A stretch of DNA of 37,719 bases from a virus: IMG/VR virus record IMGVR_UViG_3300033148_003075, positions 1 to 37,719 of that record; one strand, written 5' to 3'. The notes beneath the pieces were generated by a model. That model ran no database searches and had not been told where the DNA came from. It saw only the letters and a program-made list of their open reading frames with translations. Each line of letters starts with the position of its first letter. Within the stretch, counting starts at the first letter, position 1. Positions 6,409-35,406 of the stretch are shown here, in pieces. A program made the position numbers and the translations under genes.

Positions 6409-6572
6409 ATGCTGGCGGCGAAAGTAAATTGTATATCGCGAATAAAACTCTCGCATCTCGCCACTCTACTAATTTATGTTATTGTGTAAGACGAGAACAC
6501 CCGCTGGTCGTTTAGCAACCTTGGGCTACCTTATCCCCGTAGAGTGGGGGACTTACTCGGTCACGCCAGCAT
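6409..6572 (-). ncRNA. Structured RNA candidate E2, 164 nt
   Basis: Closed by the 9-bp perfect helix ATGCTGGCG/CGCCAGCAT (6409-6417 with 6564-6572). A second perfect 9-bp helix pairs CCACTCTAC (6461-6469) with GTAGAGTGG (6539-6547). On the minus strand ACTCTAC is also the loop of a CCCC/GGGG hairpin, so a pseudoknot is possible. Inside, GGTTG/CGACC pairs through a U-G that exists only on the minus strand. The core GAGTAAGTCCCC, then ACGGGGATAA, is shared with E1 and E3. It lies in a 299-bp gap between the attenuated promoter and the first gene, so transcription as a leader or stable RNA is likely. Confidence 0.6.
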
Positions 6573-6651: not shown

Positions 6652-6679
6652 ATTATAGACAACTGGTTAAGTTTGTCAA
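6652..6679 (-). promoter_or_regulatory. Consensus sigma70-type promoter
   Basis: -35 TTGACA (6674-6679), 16-bp spacer, -10 TATAAT (6652-6657), reading leftwards. The expected start is about 6645, exactly where arm a of the switch begins. It would drive E2 and the accessory genes below 6.4 kb. Confidence 0.85.
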
Positions 6680-6903: not shown

Positions 6904-9417
6904 TTATTTAAATAAACTCCTAAACCATTCTATAAATTTCAAAACAGCACTTTGATTTTGTTCCAGTTCCGCAATTCTTGCTTCTAAATCTCCGCCAACT
7001 AATATCTTTTTTTCCACTTCTAACTCCTCAATTCTTTTAATTAACTGTTGGATTGCCCTTGTGTTTAATTGGACGCTTGCCCCTAAATCTCTACCGACAA
7101 AAGTATATGATGTTTCTTCAATAATTGGGACTTCTTTCGTTCTCGCCTCATTGACTAATACTGTGGTCGTGGCTTGCCCGTCCCAAACATCTTCATATTC
7201 CGCTTCGTATTTAATTATCTCTACGCCAACCTGACTGGTTGAAATGGCTGATGTTTCTACTCTTACTCCTGCTGGTAGTGTGGCGTGGTCAATTTTCGCC
7301 CAATCACCTTTTTCTGTTCCTTGTTCGTGTTTAATGTTTTTAATAGCAGACACAGCGTCTCCGATATATTTAGGTGAATACTCAATATATTGGTCAGCTA
7401 AAACACTGCCAGCTACTGATAATTTATGAGATGGTGTTGTTGTGCCGATGCCGACATTGCCGCCAGACAAATCCCCGAATATTATCCCCCCTATATTTAA
7501 ATGATTATTTGTTGTCGCTGTTGGTGGGTCAGCATTATATCCAAGAATAATATTATCAACTCCTGTTGTGATTAAATCCCCTGCTTGATAGCCAATTAAA
7601 ATATTTCTCCTGTCTGCTGATGTGTCAATATTATAACCTGCTTGATAACCTATTGATATTCCTTGTCTCGGTCCTCTTGACTTGTAGCCAATCGCAACTC
7701 CATAATCCCACCCAGTGCTTCCTGTCCCAACCGCAACTCCATAATTCTTTGCATTGGCAAGTCTCCCAAAAGCCATCCCATCATTATAACCAGATGCAGA
7801 AATTCCAATCGCCACGCCTGATGCAAAAGCAGCAGTGTTCGCTCCGATTGCCACACCTTGATCATAAGCCCTTGATTTATATCCTATTTGAATATTGTTT
7901 GTATCTACAACTCCAATATCATTCCCCACCCAATCTGTCCCATTAAAAACAAATGTCTTAATACACTGGCTGTAAATATCTTCTTTCAAAACTGCTCCCT
8001 GATAAACTCTTAAATAATTATCAGAATTATAAGTATCAGTATTTTTAATAATAAATATATCCCCTGCTGTTGCCGTCGATGTTGCCAGAGTAATTGTCCT
8101 GTTCCCGTTATTAGAATTTAGGTGCTGATACATTTCATCAGTTCCAACAGTCAAAGTTTTATCTCCTGTTAATGTTTCAACATTTATTCCAGCGTTATAA
8201 TTATTAGCACTAACACTACCTGCCACTGTTAAACTGTCTGAAATATGAAGAATTGTAGATGTCGCATAGGTGGTCGTTGCTCTGTTAAAGTCAATGTTTC
8301 CCAAACTGTTTATGTAGCCAACCTCTGTATTTGAGTAATTTCTATAAGAATTTTTATTTGCTCCCGCGTCATCACCCATTCTTACGAATAAATCTTTATC
8401 GGCTGCTGTTGCTCTATGTTTGGTATGTCTGATATGAATTAAAACATCGCCTAAACTTGCGTGAGCATATTCTACATCGCCAATATGTTTTAAGGCTCCT
8501 GTTGCTGGAGTTGTTGTCACCATACTGCCTCCAGTTGAAAGATATAGATTATCACCATCAGCCCAAGCCGAAGTATCAAAATTATCTAATTGTCCAGCGA
8601 CTCTAACAAGCATTGTTTGACCAGATGTCTTACTTTCAGCCGCCAATCCAATCACATCACCCATTCCCCAAATTGTATTGTCAGCAAGTGCGAATTGGAC
8701 ATTAGTTCCTACCGCACCTGAAACATAAACTGCCTGCCCTTTTGTTATAGTTTCAGTCGCTTTACCAGAAATAGTCAAAGCGGAAGCAGCCGCCGCTCCT
8801 ATATCAGTTAAATTAGAGCCATCGCCATAAATAGTGACACCTGTAATATCGCCTGCTCCTGTGATACTTCCATCCACCGTTAATGCCCCGCCAATGTGTC
8901 CGTCATCTTGAACAAAAAGCTCTGTCGTTGAAGCGGTTCCGCCGATGTAAAATGAACCTGTTGTTGTGGTGTTGCCGTCTATTCGGAAGTCAGCCCCTAT
9001 TGAAGATGAGGCGGTGATCATAATTCCTTTTGTGGAGGTGGGAACCATAGCGTCTGCGGCACTATCGTATTCCCAAGCGGAAGCACCTGCTCCGCCTGTG
9101 TCAGCGTCTGCCTGCCAAGTTAAAGCCCCAGATCCGTCTGTTTTTAGGATTTGATTGGCAGAGCCGTCTTCCATTGGGATAGTCCAAGTTGAGGTCACCA
9201 TTGGGTTGCTGTCGTGTCCTATTAAAATAGTGCTACTGGCAATAGTGCTTATTCCTGTGCAACCTTGATATGGATAGCAGACCGTCGCTCCTACTTGAGG
9301 TTCTTCTACTTCTGTCGTCTTAAAACTAAAAAGGTCTAAAACATCGCCTAAAAATCCAGCGTGGGCTGTTCCTACTAAACCAAGTAATAAAATTGTGATG
9401 ATAAGTATTTTTTTCAT
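6904..9417 (-). CDS. Large fibre/adhesin, 837 aa, Sec signal, YadA-like repeats, S74-like end
   Basis: Residues 1-20 form a clear signal peptide with an AHA cleavage site. Residues about 85-150 (ANQILKTDGSGALTWQ...) are shared with the 371-aa protein at 17069. Residues about 508-630 contain GVAIG / GISIGYQAG repeats like the head of YadA-type trimeric adhesins. GNVGIGTTTPSHKLSVAG (653-670) precedes a region ending in GRDLGASVQLNTRAIQQLIK and a coiled coil, as in the self-cleaving/trimerisation end domains of fibres (S74-like). The likely role is host adsorption as a trimeric fibre. A secretion signal is odd for a cytoplasmically assembled virion protein. AGGAAATAAT precedes the ATG at 9417. 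Confidence 0.75.
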   Translation of the reverse strand: MKKILIITILLLGLVGTAHAGFLGDVLDLFSFKTTEVEEPQVGATVCYPYQGCTGISTIASSTILIGHDSNPMVTSTWTIPMEDGSANQILKTDGSGALTWQADADTGGAGASAWEYDSAADAMVPTSTKGIMITASSSIGADFRIDGNTTTTGSFYIGGTASTTELFVQDDGHIGGALTVDGSITGAGDITGVTIYGDGSNLTDIGAAAASALTISGKATETITKGQAVYVSGAVGTNVQFALADNTIWGMGDVIGLAAESKTSGQTMLVRVAGQLDNFDTSAWADGDNLYLSTGGSMVTTTPATGALKHIGDVEYAHASLGDVLIHIRHTKHRATAADKDLFVRMGDDAGANKNSYRNYSNTEVGYINSLGNIDFNRATTTYATSTILHISDSLTVAGSVSANNYNAGINVETLTGDKTLTVGTDEMYQHLNSNNGNRTITLATSTATAGDIFIIKNTDTYNSDNYLRVYQGAVLKEDIYSQCIKTFVFNGTDWVGNDIGVVDTNNIQIGYKSRAYDQGVAIGANTAAFASGVAIGISASGYNDGMAFGRLANAKNYGVAVGTGSTGWDYGVAIGYKSRGPRQGISIGYQAGYNIDTSADRRNILIGYQAGDLITTGVDNIILGYNADPPTATTNNHLNIGGIIFGDLSGGNVGIGTTTPSHKLSVAGSVLADQYIEYSPKYIGDAVSAIKNIKHEQGTEKGDWAKIDHATLPAGVRVETSAISTSQVGVEIIKYEAEYEDVWDGQATTTVLVNEARTKEVPIIEETSYTFVGRDLGASVQLNTRAIQQLIKRIEELEVEKKILVGGDLEARIAELEQNQSAVLKFIEWFRSLFK

Positions 9418-17069: not shown

Positions 17070-18184
17070 TAGTCCTTTCTAAATATCTGAACATCCGCTG
17101 CTCTTAATGATGTATCTGTTGTTGAATCGGCTTTAGCTTTAATGTCTATTACTTGGTCAACCGAAGTATCAATATGTAATTCTGTTGATGTTGAAAGATA
17201 TGTTTGGTCGCCCGTAGAACCATATTCGTGCCATATATTCATAACTGCCCATTGTAGATTTTCACTTCCTCTATTATAAATATTTACTGTTCCGTGCCAA
17301 TATCTATTTTCCTGAGAACCTGTTTTTATATGAGTTGTTGTCGCAATCGTTTCTCCGCCAAACAAAGCACTAATATAATGCGTATCGTTTGTAAAACTTA
17401 ATCCACTCATAGTTAATCTTACTAATCCATTTGCCCCCATATCTCCACCCTTAATAGTAAAACTTCCAATAGTTGCCTCAGCACCTGTTGATGTTGCTGT
17501 TGTGTTATCAACAAGATAAGATGTCATTATTTCGTGGGAGTGCCAATAATCCGCAAGAGATGTTTTGCCGAAAGTTAGGGCAGTAAATGCTGTTCCTGTT
17601 GCGGTCGCTCCTAACCCTGAAATAGTCACTCCGTCAATGTTAAGTCCTCCACCAAACGAAGAAGACGCTGTGATATAAATTCCAAGAGTTGATGTAGTAA
17701 CCATAGCGTCCGTTCCGCTATTATATTCCCAAGCAGACGAACCACCAACTTCCGACTGCCAAGTCACAGCACCCGAGCCGTCTGTTTTTAATATCTGATT
17801 AGCGTTTCCGTCTGTGTTAGGCAGATAATAAGCCCCTATTGTTAAACTATCCGAAATATAAAGAAATGTTGTAGAAGCATTACCAATAACATTCAAATCG
17901 TCTGAAATTTTTAATTTTCCAATCGTTGAAGAAGAAGTATCGCCGAGTATCAGCCCAAATGTCGGGCTTGATGAAGTATAGAGATAGTCAGACCCAGCCG
18001 ACCAGTGAATAGCGTTGTTGAGAGAAGCCAAATCAGCGTTATAAATCGCTGGCAAATCAGAAACTTGGTCAGTTGTTAAAAGAGTGGTAATAGTCGCCCC
18101 GAAATGGTCTTCTTGGATAGCGATAACTCCAAGAACCAATCCGACTGTTAATGTGATAATACTTAAATATGTTATTAGTTTCAT
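17069..18184 (-). CDS. Fibre-like protein, 371 aa, N-terminal membrane anchor
   Basis: Residues 4-22 are hydrophobic (LITYLSIITLTVGLVLGVI), a signal or anchor. Residues about 122-185 (GNANQILKTDGSGAVTWQ, SAWEYNSGTDAMV) are clearly homologous to residues 85-150 of the 837-aa fibre. The C-terminus is a beta-rich domain ending ADVQIFRKD. It may be a second adhesin built from the same cassette. The start overlaps the stop of the 63-aa gene (ATGA). Confidence 0.65.
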   Translation of the reverse strand: MKLITYLSIITLTVGLVLGVIAIQEDHFGATITTLLTTDQVSDLPAIYNADLASLNNAIHWSAGSDYLYTSSSPTFGLILGDTSSSTIGKLKISDDLNVIGNASTTFLYISDSLTIGAYYLPNTDGNANQILKTDGSGAVTWQSEVGGSSAWEYNSGTDAMVTTSTLGIYITASSSFGGGLNIDGVTISGLGATATGTAFTALTFGKTSLADYWHSHEIMTSYLVDNTTATSTGAEATIGSFTIKGGDMGANGLVRLTMSGLSFTNDTHYISALFGGETIATTTHIKTGSQENRYWHGTVNIYNRGSENLQWAVMNIWHEYGSTGDQTYLSTSTELHIDTSVDQVIDIKAKADSTTDTSLRAADVQIFRKD

Positions 18185-20002: not shown

Positions 20003-21745
20003 TTACGCTACTGTAATATCGTAGAGAACCGCTTCGTGATTGTGCCAACTGGCAAATTCCCAATCCATACGGCTAACAACACCTGTGCCTGATAAAGGAC
20101 CGTCCGCTGTGGCTGGTTCTTTATCAATTACAATCTGTCCGTTAGTCGCTGTGAGAATACCCAAGTGGAACAGGTTTCTAATTCCGCCAAACAAGTGTCC
20201 TGAAGCGTGGCTGTTGGAAACATAATGGTACATACCCATAAAGTAGTATCCATCATCTCCTACGCCATCTTTCAGGGCTTTGTCAGCAAGAACGAAGCCA
20301 TTCAAATTTGTTACTCCTCATAATGAGGGGGAAAACCGCTTCGGATTTTCCTCTCCGCCTTCTAACTTAATTAAGTATTTTTGAACCTTTATGCATATTT
20401 TCTTTTGCCCAGAGTGGTTGTAAATTTGTATAATGAAATGCTTTTTTCTGTTCTTCCGCTTTTGTTAAGTCAAAACTGGATAATGGTATTATGTGGTCTA
20501 TATGCCAACCATAAAACCCATAATTATCCCAAGTCATTCCGTCTTGAAACTGCTTTTCAAGATACACTTTTAATTCTTTAATCGTAATTCCAATCAATTT
20601 TTCTGTTCTGTCAGATTTATATCCGTGTTTTAGTGCGTCATACACTCTGGCTCTAACAACTGAAGCAAGTTTCTCATAAGGTCTTTTTCTTCTCTGTTGA
20701 TATATTTTTTTAGCATTCTTTCTGTGCCACTCTCTCATTCGTTCTCGGTGATACTTCCTAAACTTGTCTGTATTTCTGTATTCTCTCATATAGGCATTCT
20801 GATAATCCCTATACTTTTTATACTTTTCTGGGTCTTGCTTCATTTTCTCATAAGCCTTTTTTGATTGAGCTATTGCCTTTTTCGGATTTTCAGCATATTT
20901 TCTGCGTTTATATTCACGGTCATATTTTCTAATTTTCTCTTGTTTATTCATACTCTAATTATATATGAGTAAACTTCTCCAGTCAATACTTTAATTAAGT
21001 TTTTAATGTACAATTATAGCGAAGTTCAGACTGTCGCTTCTCCTTTTCGGGAGTCTCTCCACTCAGTCGTTCAGCGTCCCGTTGCCAAAATCGGCAATGG
21101 GTTCGCCCCTGTTATCCGTTGTATTCGGATGTCCAAGTCAATAAGGAAAGATTTAATCAGACCAATAGTTCTTTTACAAGCCTGACAGAATTGCTCAAGC
21201 AATTCCAAGTCAGCATACCTCCAAACAATAAACGCTCCGTGCTGTTTCATTAAATTCTTACCATTCGCTTCTCCGATTTCCCTCTTAACGCCCCTGATGA
21301 TGTCGTCAATGTTGGAGGCGGAAACTGTGATGTTTCCTGCTGCTCCGCCAATCTGACTGTTATCAAAGTCAGTCCACATAGCGTGGTTGGCTAACATATC
21401 AGTTTCGTAGTATTCATTGATTAACTGACCTTGTAAGTCAGCAATTTCCATTTGACTGGCATATGGGGTTTGGGCTTCGTCAGCCCTGTCAATGAACATT
21501 GGGATAATTTGGGATTGGTTAATGGTAATGCTGTCGGTGGTGACTGCCTGTGTTTGGTGGGTATAAGCCGTTCCTCTGGTGTGGGACTGCAAAGAAGGAG
21601 TTGTTGAACGATATGGGTTGTAGAACACCCTTGAATTGGTGTATTGAACCCTGCAAATTTCCTTCCAGCAAGTCGGATAATCAAGCCGCTCCTGAAGTTT
21701 TACACTCCACTCTTCAGGATATAAAAATGTATTCGCAACTGTAAT
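20003..21745 (-). CDS. Major capsid protein split by a group I intron
   Basis: Proposed join: exon 1 21745-21179, exon 2 20302-20003, about 288 aa. The reading frame passes through LYPEEWSVKLQERLDYP, TRGTAYTHQT, MFIDRADEAQ and EQFCQA, then after splicing NGFVLADKALKDGV, HYVSNSHASGHLFGGIRNL and GTGVVSRMDWEF, a series I recognise as an HK97-fold capsid protein. No ATG, GTG or in-frame usable TTG lies upstream of a GTG at 21628, yet the conserved sequence clearly extends to about 21745. I place the start provisionally at ATT 21745. An in-frame TTG at 21778 is followed by TAG at 21764-21766. Confidence 0.85.
20367..20951 (-). CDS. Intron-encoded HNH homing endonuclease, 194 aa
   Basis: A very basic, helical N-terminus (DREYKRRKYAENPKKAIA and similar RExY repeats to about residue 90) is followed by KLIGITIKELKVYLEKQF, then the HNH domain WHIDHIIPLSSFDL ... 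YTNLQPLWAKENMHKGSK. This is the usual layout of phage intron HNH enzymes. It has its own promoter (20958-20986), and the ATG lies 6 bp after the -10 box, so its mRNA would be leaderless. Confidence 0.9.
   Translation of the reverse strand: MNKQEKIRKYDREYKRRKYAENPKKAIAQSKKAYEKMKQDPEKYKKYRDYQNAYMREYRNTDKFRKYHRERMREWHRKNAKKIYQQRRKRPYEKLASVVRARVYDALKHGYKSDRTEKLIGITIKELKVYLEKQFQDGMTWDNYGFYGWHIDHIIPLSSFDLTKAEEQKKAFHYTNLQPLWAKENMHKGSKILN
20958..20986 (-). promoter_or_regulatory. Promoter for the capsid-intron HNH gene
   Basis: -35 TTGACT (20981-20986), 17-bp spacer, -10 TATAAT (20958-20963), then TAGAGT and the ATG of the HNH gene. The start would fall on or next to the ATG. It lets the endonuclease be expressed independently of late transcription. 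Confidence 0.75.
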
Positions 21746-31725: not shown

Positions 31726-31989
31726 TTACTCCTTATTTAGTTTTTTAATGTCTTCTAATGCTTGGTGATATTTTGCCCATTTTTCTTCACAAGCCAAATC
31801 ATACTTTGCACAACACTTCCTCATCTTCTCAATCTCCTCTACTATGTATTTCCTCCAAATCCGTTTACCCTCCATTAGTCCTTTATATTCCGCTTGGCGA
31901 AGTTCTTGATAGATTATCTCCTCTATCTCCTCTGCGTGTTTTGTAGTTATTTTTCCTTTGAGGTTTAGTTTGTTTGTGTTTATCTTCAT
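31726..31989 (-). CDS. Hypothetical helical protein, 87 aa
   Basis: MKINTNKLNLKGKITTKHAE, then long charged helices with a Cys-Cys pair (KMRKCCAKYDLACEEKW). The start lies 10-20 nt past one copy of the GGCTTATGAGCC-type repeat. No family recognised. Confidence 0.6.
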   Translation of the reverse strand: MKINTNKLNLKGKITTKHAEEIEEIIYQELRQAEYKGLMEGKRIWRKYIVEEIEKMRKCCAKYDLACEEKWAKYHQALEDIKKLNKE

Positions 31990-31995
31990 ATATTT

Positions 31996-32015
31996 GGCTT
32001 ATGAGGGGTTAAGTT
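31996..32015. repeat. GGCTTATGAG-type leader repeat, copy A
   Basis: GGCTTATGAGGGGTTAAGTT. The other copies are at 32540-32557, 32719-32738 and 32903-32920. On the minus strand each copy reads about ACTAACGGCTCATAAGCC and lies 10-20 nt before an ATG. GGCT-CATA-AGCC can form a small stem-loop. This copy is the most divergent (GAGGGG for GAGCCG). Confidence 0.6.
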
Positions 32016-32121
32016 AATCGTCTTCGTCTTCTTTTTCATCGCATTCTTCTGGGTCTTCAATTAAGCAATCCCCATTTAATACGCAATTTTTACATTTTTT
32101 ATCTGTATGATAATAACTCAT
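32014..32121 (-). CDS. Cys-rich acidic microprotein, 35 aa
   Basis: MSYYHTDKKCKNCVLNGDCL then IEDPEECDEKEDEDD: four Cys in a short space and a strongly acidic tail. It starts at 32121, 2 nt downstream of the previous stop. Its acidity could mimic DNA or bind a basic protein. No family recognised. Confidence 0.55.
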   Translation of the reverse strand: MSYYHTDKKCKNCVLNGDCLIEDPEECDEKEDEDD

Positions 32122-32122
32122 C

Positions 32123-32524
32123 CTACTCCTTCCTCTGCTCAATTAAGAGCGAGTTAGTTTTGTTTTCTATTAAATAAATAAGCATTTTAGCTCTTGCGTC
32201 TGCTTCGGTTTTAGCTTCAAAATTAGAACAATGTCTTTCTTTGCCCCATTTCTTATCTAAATTCCATAAACCGACTGTTATTTCTCTATTATCTTTCATT
32301 AAAGTTATTTTATAATCTTCTGGCAACATCTCTCCTAATTCGGCTACTGAATATGCACGGTAAAATTCGTGATGCATATTAAAATCCCATTCCAAATATC
32401 TTACCAACTCCCAACCTTGATTTTTAAATGGATTAAACCAATACCAAAAACTATTTTGCTTAACTCCCAATTTCTCTAATTGTTTTGATAGCTCTAATGA
32501 ACATACTTGGTTTTTTAATTTCAT
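32123..32524 (-). CDS. Conserved phage protein of unknown function, 133 aa
   Basis: CSLELSKQLEKLGVKQNSFW, SVAELGEMLPEDYKI and FEAKTEADARAKMLIYLIEN form a pattern I recognise from many phage hypothetical proteins. The function is not known. Start at 32524, with AGGAGTAAAT upstream. Confidence 0.75.
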   Translation of the reverse strand: MKLKNQVCSLELSKQLEKLGVKQNSFWYWFNPFKNQGWELVRYLEWDFNMHHEFYRAYSVAELGEMLPEDYKITLMKDNREITVGLWNLDKKWGKERHCSNFEAKTEADARAKMLIYLIENKTNSLLIEQRKE

Positions 32525-32526
32525 AT

Positions 32527-32709
32527 TTACTCCTTTCTCGGCTTATGAGCCGTTAGTTTTGGTTTATATTCTCCACAATAATCTCTTTCAACTTTTTCAA
32601 CTCCAATTGGATATTTTTTACAAACCCCAAAAGAAATTGAATATCCGTCATCTGAATTAGTATAAGCTTGTTCCCAATATTTACAATTTTGACATCTTTT
32701 TTTCTTCAT
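32527..32709 (-). CDS. Small zinc-binding protein, 60 aa, LTAHKP tail
   Basis: CQNCKYWEQAYTNSDDGYSI, then CKKYP and DYCGEY: four Cys, likely one zinc. The last residues KLTAHKPRKE are read from a copy of the leader repeat (32540-32557), so the C-terminus is a by-product of that repeat. The start lies downstream of another copy. Confidence 0.65.
   Translation of the reverse strand: MKKKRCQNCKYWEQAYTNSDDGYSISFGVCKKYPIGVEKVERDYCGEYKPKLTAHKPRKE
32540..32557. repeat. Leader repeat, copy B
   Basis: GGCTTATGAGCCGTTAGT. It lies before the ATG of the 133-aa gene and is read in frame as LTAHKP at the end of the 60-aa protein. Confidence 0.65.
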
Positions 32710-32718
32710 AATTTGTTT

Positions 32719-32738
32719 GGCTTATGAGCTGTTAAGTT
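32719..32738. repeat. Leader repeat, copy C
   Basis: GGCTTATGAGCTGTTAAGTT, before the ATG of the 60-aa gene and immediately after the stop of the 124-aa gene. Confidence 0.65.
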
Positions 32739-33111
32739 AGTTATCTATTTGGAAAATTTTCACAGGAGGTAATTTTTCTTCCTTTATTTTTTTCGTAATT
32801 TTCCCACAACAGATACAATAATAAACAGATTGTCCTTTATTTTTAATCCATTCGTGTTTACCGTGTGTGCTTTTTTTACATTCTCTTTTCATAATATATT
32901 TTGGCTTATGAGCCGTTAGTAATTTTACTTTATTTGATATTTTCCTCGCCTCTTTCCCACTTTTCGCTAATACTCCATTAAAAAACTTTCGTCCACATTT
33001 TCCACATTTAACACAAATTTCACCATAACTTTCAGATAAATTAAGGCACTTATCAGATACTCCATAATCTAAATGAATTGGTATATTTATTTCTTTATGT
33101 TCTTTCTTCAT
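32737..33111 (-). CDS. Zinc-binding protein, 124 aa, probably two fused small genes
   Basis: The first 66 residues (MKKEHKEINIPIHLDYGVSD, then CVKCGKCGRKFFN) are one zinc-binding unit. LLTAHKP follows, read from leader-repeat copy D. Then comes a second unit beginning MKRECKKSTHGKHEWIKNKG with YYCICCGK. The internal ATG at 32892 sits just past the repeat, exactly like the other genes' starts. So the open frame may be read as a fusion or as two proteins, the second 51 aa long. Confidence 0.6.
   Translation of the reverse strand: MKKEHKEINIPIHLDYGVSDKCLNLSESYGEICVKCGKCGRKFFNGVLAKSGKEARKISNKVKLLTAHKPKYIMKRECKKSTHGKHEWIKNKGQSVYYCICCGKITKKIKEEKLPPVKIFQIDN
32903..32920. repeat. Leader repeat, copy D (inside an open frame)
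   Basis: GGCTTATGAGCCGTTAGT, identical to copy B. It lies within the 124-aa open frame just before an internal ATG at 32892. Confidence 0.65.
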
Positions 33112-35378: not shown

Positions 35379-35406
35379 ATTATAAAGGTTCTGTTTTGGG
35401 TGTCAA
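35379..35406 (-). promoter_or_regulatory. Consensus promoter of the replication operon
   Basis: -35 TTGACA (35401-35406), 16-bp spacer, -10 TATAAT (35379-35384), start near 35372. It drives the switch, the zinc protein, initiator and helicase. Confidence 0.88.

Follow-up and report, generated by a model that had tools for sequence, protein, structure and literature searches.

What does E2 do, a structured stretch with no convincing small ORF within it that separates a strong leftward promoter from a small gene in an uncultured phage whose relatives are likewise uncultured? The window analyzed here is the whole 37.7-kb phage record (37,719 nt), and the majority of its genes are on the minus strand. 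E2 is flanked on the promoter side by a 65-aa ORF (6894-6697) and on the other side by an 81-aa ORF (6397-6152, minus strand) that matched no known family. An earlier note drew the core of E2 at 6572-6409 on the minus strand and described it as a multibranched, pseudoknotted RNA that could be a ribozyme, a riboswitch or a stable RNA of an unnamed class. The reading that we favor, with a probability of about 0.43, is that E2 serves as a folded 5' leader in a leftward phage operon transcribed from promoter 6679, where it lies behind an attenuator and gates the translation of ORF 6397-6152.

Two general properties ascribed to E2 by the note need qualification. E2 is indeed richer in G+C (48% versus 38%), but only moderately so, because 3.4% of windows are equally rich. 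The motif GAGTAAGTCCCC...ACGGGGATAA, said to be common to E2 and two further elements, E1 and E3, is found once in the window, at E2, with near matches at chance level, and BLAST and nhmmer comparisons of E2 with the window yielded no second copy. Thus, no E1 or E3 carrying the motif was found.

Promoter and attenuator ahead of E2

The E2 transcript would start from a sigma70 promoter, TTGACA-16-TATAAT (6679-6652, minus strand), which matches the consensus at 12 of 12 positions and is one of three perfect promoters in the window. An intrinsic terminator (6615-6587, minus strand) starts 36 nt downstream of this promoter and consists of the stem AGCCAACC/GGTTGGCT with a 13-nt loop, followed by a U-rich tract. 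Given this perfect promoter with a terminator directly after it, the label of an attenuated promoter preceding E2 and then the first gene holds. A scan of the whole minus strand detected nine terminator-like sites, and three (35406, 29499 and 6679) of the seven minus-strand promoters with at least 11 of 12 consensus positions have a terminator directly behind them. In the 29499-29401 region (minus strand), the strong promoter and the terminator directly behind it come without a complementary 5' segment.

For the promoter at 6679, segment a (AGGGATAG, 6645-6638, minus strand), where the RNA is predicted to begin, is complementary to a segment denoted a' (CTATCCCT, 6605-6598), which sits inside the 13-nt loop of the terminator. 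As judged from the sequence, the locus thus combines a strong promoter with a helix of the antiterminator type that would be exclusive with the terminator, ahead of the first gene, as expected of a promoter-proximal attenuator. In the first stage of the proposed mechanism, pairing of a with a' would compete with formation of the terminator stem, and part of the transcripts would end at the attenuator, yielding short RNAs of about 60-65 nt. In trp-type attenuators, competing helices can decide termination just past the promoter, and the same may apply here directly after the promoter. Unlike in the trp type, the competing helix targets the loop of the terminator rather than its stem, and no leader peptide is shown.

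The fold of E2 and the ribosome site downstream

The two perfect 9-bp Watson-Crick helices reported in the note are present on the minus strand, namely, P1 (6572-6564/6417-6409) and P2 (6547-6539/6469-6461, formed by CCACTCTAC and GTAGAGTGG). Among mononucleotide-shuffled E2 sequences, 0.05% contain two helices of this kind, as do about 0.1% of the phage windows of equal length. The C4/G4 hairpin, P3 (6550-6535, minus strand; stem 6550-6547/6538-6535), was also correctly identified, and its loop, which was proposed to pair elsewhere, is the 5' strand of P2. As drawn, P2 and P3 are mutually exclusive, and when each is forced, they are iso-energetic (-54.6 and -54.9 kcal/mol), so that E2 is bistable rather than one simple pseudoknot; on the plus strand, P2 alone forms, without the C4/G4 hairpin. 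Of the original description, the multibranched, structured minus-strand RNA survives, but the pseudoknot resolves into two alternative pairings. The folding z-score of E2 is -4.1 on the minus strand, where it beats 200 of 200 dinucleotide shuffles, and -3.1 on the plus strand; its free energy is the fifth lowest among 626 window and strand combinations, near that of the group I intron in the same phage. The structure of E2 is real and among the most foldable stretches of the phage; conservation of E2 is a separate matter, addressed below.

The outer helix is longer than the 9 bp originally noticed. The extended P1 (6584-6564/6417-6397) has 20 of 21 positions paired, including two U-G pairs for which the opposite strand would offer only A-C, in agreement with the proposed preference for the minus strand, and the better boundaries of E2 are accordingly 6584-6397. 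The 5' strand of the extended helix (6584-6564, minus strand) takes in the U-rich tract immediately past the terminator along with ATGCTGGCG. The 3' strand (6417-6397, minus strand) covers the Shine-Dalgarno-like AAGGGA (6407-6402), located in the same place as the AAGGA-type sites of other genes in this phage, and reaches as far as the A with which the start codon of ORF 6397-6152 begins. Across the full leader as predicted, most P1 pairs have probabilities near 1, and the probability of being unpaired is 0.23 for the first base of AAGGGA and 0.00-0.02 for the other five. In a shuffled strand of the whole phage, about 0.9 helices with at least 19 of 20 pairs are expected at the span of P1, so the extension by itself is not rare genome-wide; its weight comes from the position flush with both the terminator and the start codon, together with the perfect, GC-rich 9-bp inner part. 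The predicted placement of P1 over the ribosome-binding site argues for gating at the level of translation. Because the outer helix is predicted to hide this site ahead of the following gene, E2 is probably a control leader and not a known ribozyme or riboswitch.

Under the favored reading, E2 is presumably transcribed as part of the read-through RNA and would constitute the second stage of a two-stage gate. The promoter, the terminator, the complementarities, the helices and the predicted burial of the ribosome site can be read from the DNA itself. If that burial matters, the 20-bp outer helix would connect the tract past the terminator with both the start codon and the Shine-Dalgarno region, and ORF 6397-6152 would remain untranslated until something opens or cuts the helix, perhaps the short terminated RNA, a protein of the phage, a ligand or RNase III. 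The inner part of E2 could meanwhile flip between P2 and P3.

The simplest alternative is that E2 has no function at the RNA level and is a GC-richer gap between the terminator and the gene that folds well by chance. Other stretches of the window that are non-functional or coding reach similar z-scores, and no homologues of E2 were found, as would be expected under this explanation. The co-occurrence of two perfect 9-bp helices in only about 0.05-0.1% of the controls and the flush placement of the outer helix against the terminator and the start codon speak against it, and we consider a chance fold unlikely.

Somewhat less likely still is a processing cassette, in which RNase III would cut the 20-bp outer helix, releasing a stable noncoding E2 RNA and freeing the ribosome site. 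The precedent is the lambda N leader, where a strong early promoter is followed by a long RNase III hairpin before the first gene, with control of translation. E2 similarly places a long hairpin between a strong promoter and the first gene. The near-perfect outer helix has a length preferred by RNase III and suitable for a leader hairpin of the lambda type, which makes it a candidate for cleavage, and the interior is compact and structured. The differences from the lambda N leader are that no nut-like site or N-like gene was identified and that the interior of E2 is multibranched and bistable.

Known RNA families, homologues and parallel systems

The Rfam 15 scan of E2 yielded no match at either gathering or permissive thresholds, and none to the ribozyme families. 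The sub-threshold matches (MIR478, HOTTIP, SpR18, mir-278 and BSR0709) are at chance level. The group I intron and the tRNA of the window were recovered, which indicates that the scan works. The intron, at 4179-3995, is the only one reported by Rfam. A probable second group I intron is located at 3560-2650 (minus strand), with a P7 of GACTA/TAGTC and a 10-bp P8, CTATTGTATG/CATACAATAG, flanking an HNH endonuclease ORF (3372-2656) in the P8 loop. Another stretch, 1900-1600 (minus strand; z-score -5.4), is very structured and includes a tRNA-like shape (arms GTGGAGA...TCTCCAC, about 1755-1668) that was not called by ARAGORN.

Searches for homologues of E2 started from 80 phage loci identified by terminase. 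A DNA search in 50 records from these loci, nhmmer over 1.3 Mb of the loci and a covariance model built from E2 alone, run over 1.1 Mb, yielded nothing credible, so no pair of E2 is supported by covariation. A covariance match with an apparent 9-bp P2 (L139, E 2.5) was dismissed as chance because it is antisense inside a tail gene; the gap in L010, which carries a homologue of the neighboring gene, is not E2-like; and the pattern GAGTAAGTCCC..GGGATAA was found in 8 IMG/VR contigs, none of which resembles E2 beyond the pattern, a chance result as well. The contig of the closest relative (G001), with structural genes at about 32-78% identity, ends before the E2 region, and another contig (L155), 99% identical, breaks off within the tail gene, short of that region. 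Alignments of the capsid-like, tail and 481-aa proteins yielded little apart from a related tail gene in a single MAG with a genome of about 0.8 Mb. DNA searches of 379 genomes from the phylum of this MAG and model searches of 192 detected no E2, an empty result that shows little because these searches were run without a positive control.

The functional class proposed in the note (ribozyme, riboswitch or unnamed stable RNA) is not supported, as there was no Rfam match, no homologue in which pair conservation could be assessed, and no E1 or E3 found. E2 is an orphan structured leader, real as a structure, for which a role as a ribozyme, a riboswitch or a member of a conserved class lacks support. 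A bistable interior beside a gated ribosome site, with a platform-like predicted burial of the Shine-Dalgarno sequence, is what a ligand-binding riboswitch might look like. No conserved core, including that of an aptamer, emerges because no homologues are known for comparison, and with the terminator located upstream of E2, its control by E2 in the usual riboswitch manner is impossible. Combined with the empty Rfam scan, this makes a ribozyme or riboswitch improbable.

Two phage systems offer parallels to the locus. In the Salmonella prophage Gifsy-1, the short terminated IsrK RNA activates a read-through RNA that is translationally closed, whereas in P4, a leader segment is complementary to a hairpin loop in its own transcript, the CI RNA, and premature termination controls the operon (PMC4825925). 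The locus shares with IsrK a phage promoter, an early terminator that would yield a short RNA, and a read-through RNA predicted to be translationally closed, and with the P4 CI or C4 antisense RNA, the complementarity between a leader segment and a loop in the same transcript along with a possible control of the operon by premature termination. Unlike these systems, the leader matches neither the isrK (RF01394) nor the C4 (RF01695) covariance model, although P4, the positive control, matches both. It further differs from IsrK by the extra 190-nt structured leader, E2 itself, and from the C4 arrangement in that the complementary loop is the own loop of the intrinsic terminator.

By analogy, the short terminated RNA could act in trans on the read-through RNA, its loop pairing with the nascent 5' segment or the Shine-Dalgarno sequence, a role that is only hypothetical here. 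The loop CTATCCCTT can pair with GGGATA in E2 (6537) and with the AAGGGA site (6407), over 6 bp in both cases, but a best match of equal length occurs in about 26% of shuffles, and the downstream complements of the loop are not above chance. Given also the lack of isrK and C4 matches, trans action appears marginally less probable even than a ribozyme or riboswitch. Finally, it is very improbable that the inverted repeats, long ones being visible on the plus strand too, work as DNA, as a protein-binding or replication site, given that the two U-G pairs favor a minus-strand RNA and that there is no skew switch near 6.5 kb, for which reason a replication origin at E2 was rejected.

A family of interlocked attenuators

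The attenuator that precedes E2 in the favored leader reading has a counterpart of the same design in the same phage, where a second promoter with an interlocked attenuator spans 35406-35292 (minus strand; a/a', ACCACGATGAAG/CTTCATCGTGGT; terminator, 35331-35292). The terminator stems of both share GGTTGGCT, and in each, the terminator loop is perfectly complementary to the early transcript, over 12 bp at 35406 and 8 bp at 6679, with entirely different paired sequences. We searched the window and the relatives for the signature a - b - a' - b' - U tract, initially blind to promoters, and obtained 20 hits versus 2 per shuffle; with a/a' of at least 9 bp, there were 9 hits (four sites) versus 0 in shuffles. 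A promoter-anchored scan gave 8 hits with a/a' of at least 8 bp, where 0.17 are expected per shuffle. These 8 hits represent six distinct sites, five of them clear, given that L108 and L109 overlap and that an AT-rich site in L140 was counted twice.

Altogether, six clear sites, located 27-62 nt behind promoters with 10-12 of 12 consensus positions, are present in this phage and four terminase-related relatives. In addition to the two described above, these are site 190 of L094 (127-205, plus strand), site 3422 of L104 (3502-3380, minus strand), site 12313 of L118 (about 12404-12250, minus strand), which is outside the distance limit of the promoter-anchored scan, and site 19686 of L108 (19631-19740, plus strand). 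A possible further site in L172 (6184-6310, plus strand) has a promoter of only 9/12, and three other sites from the promoter-blind scan, with no good promoter, were judged to be chance. None of four reference phages (lambda, P4, TP901-1 and Fpv5) has the arrangement. Segments a' and b' are separated by 0-3 nt, with the exception of the L118 site (15 nt). At three sites, the competing stems are near balance (-12.5/-13.0, -17.3/-18.2 and -21.8/-24.2 kcal/mol), which fits the expectation for a switch. Because complementarity was the search criterion, the evidence lies in how far the hits exceed the shuffles and in the independent match to promoters rather than in covariation counts.

The attenuators apparently comprise a small, so far undescribed family common to related phages, and this family is a more general result than E2 itself. 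There is a small chance that these phages share an undescribed mode of gene control, in which interlocked attenuators at strong promoters would release the 5' ends of operons as short RNAs, with one operon adding the bistable leader E2 as a translational gate that is closed by the tract behind the terminator, coupling the two controls. If so, several strong promoters in these phages would be run by competing RNA helices, and one of them also by a leader that hides the Shine-Dalgarno sequence. The signature behind a strong promoter is simple and can be searched for elsewhere.

Several other features of the window were observed along the way. Strong structure is predicted on both strands at 21039-21218 (z-scores -5.8 and -5.1), at the downstream end of a capsid-like gene. 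Repeats of the form GGCTTATGAGC(C/T)GTTA are located shortly before several small genes at 31974-32933 and are perhaps regulatory sites, and the segments 9002-9169 and 17658-17813 are paralogous coding blocks of two tail-fibre-like genes with 72-75% identity.
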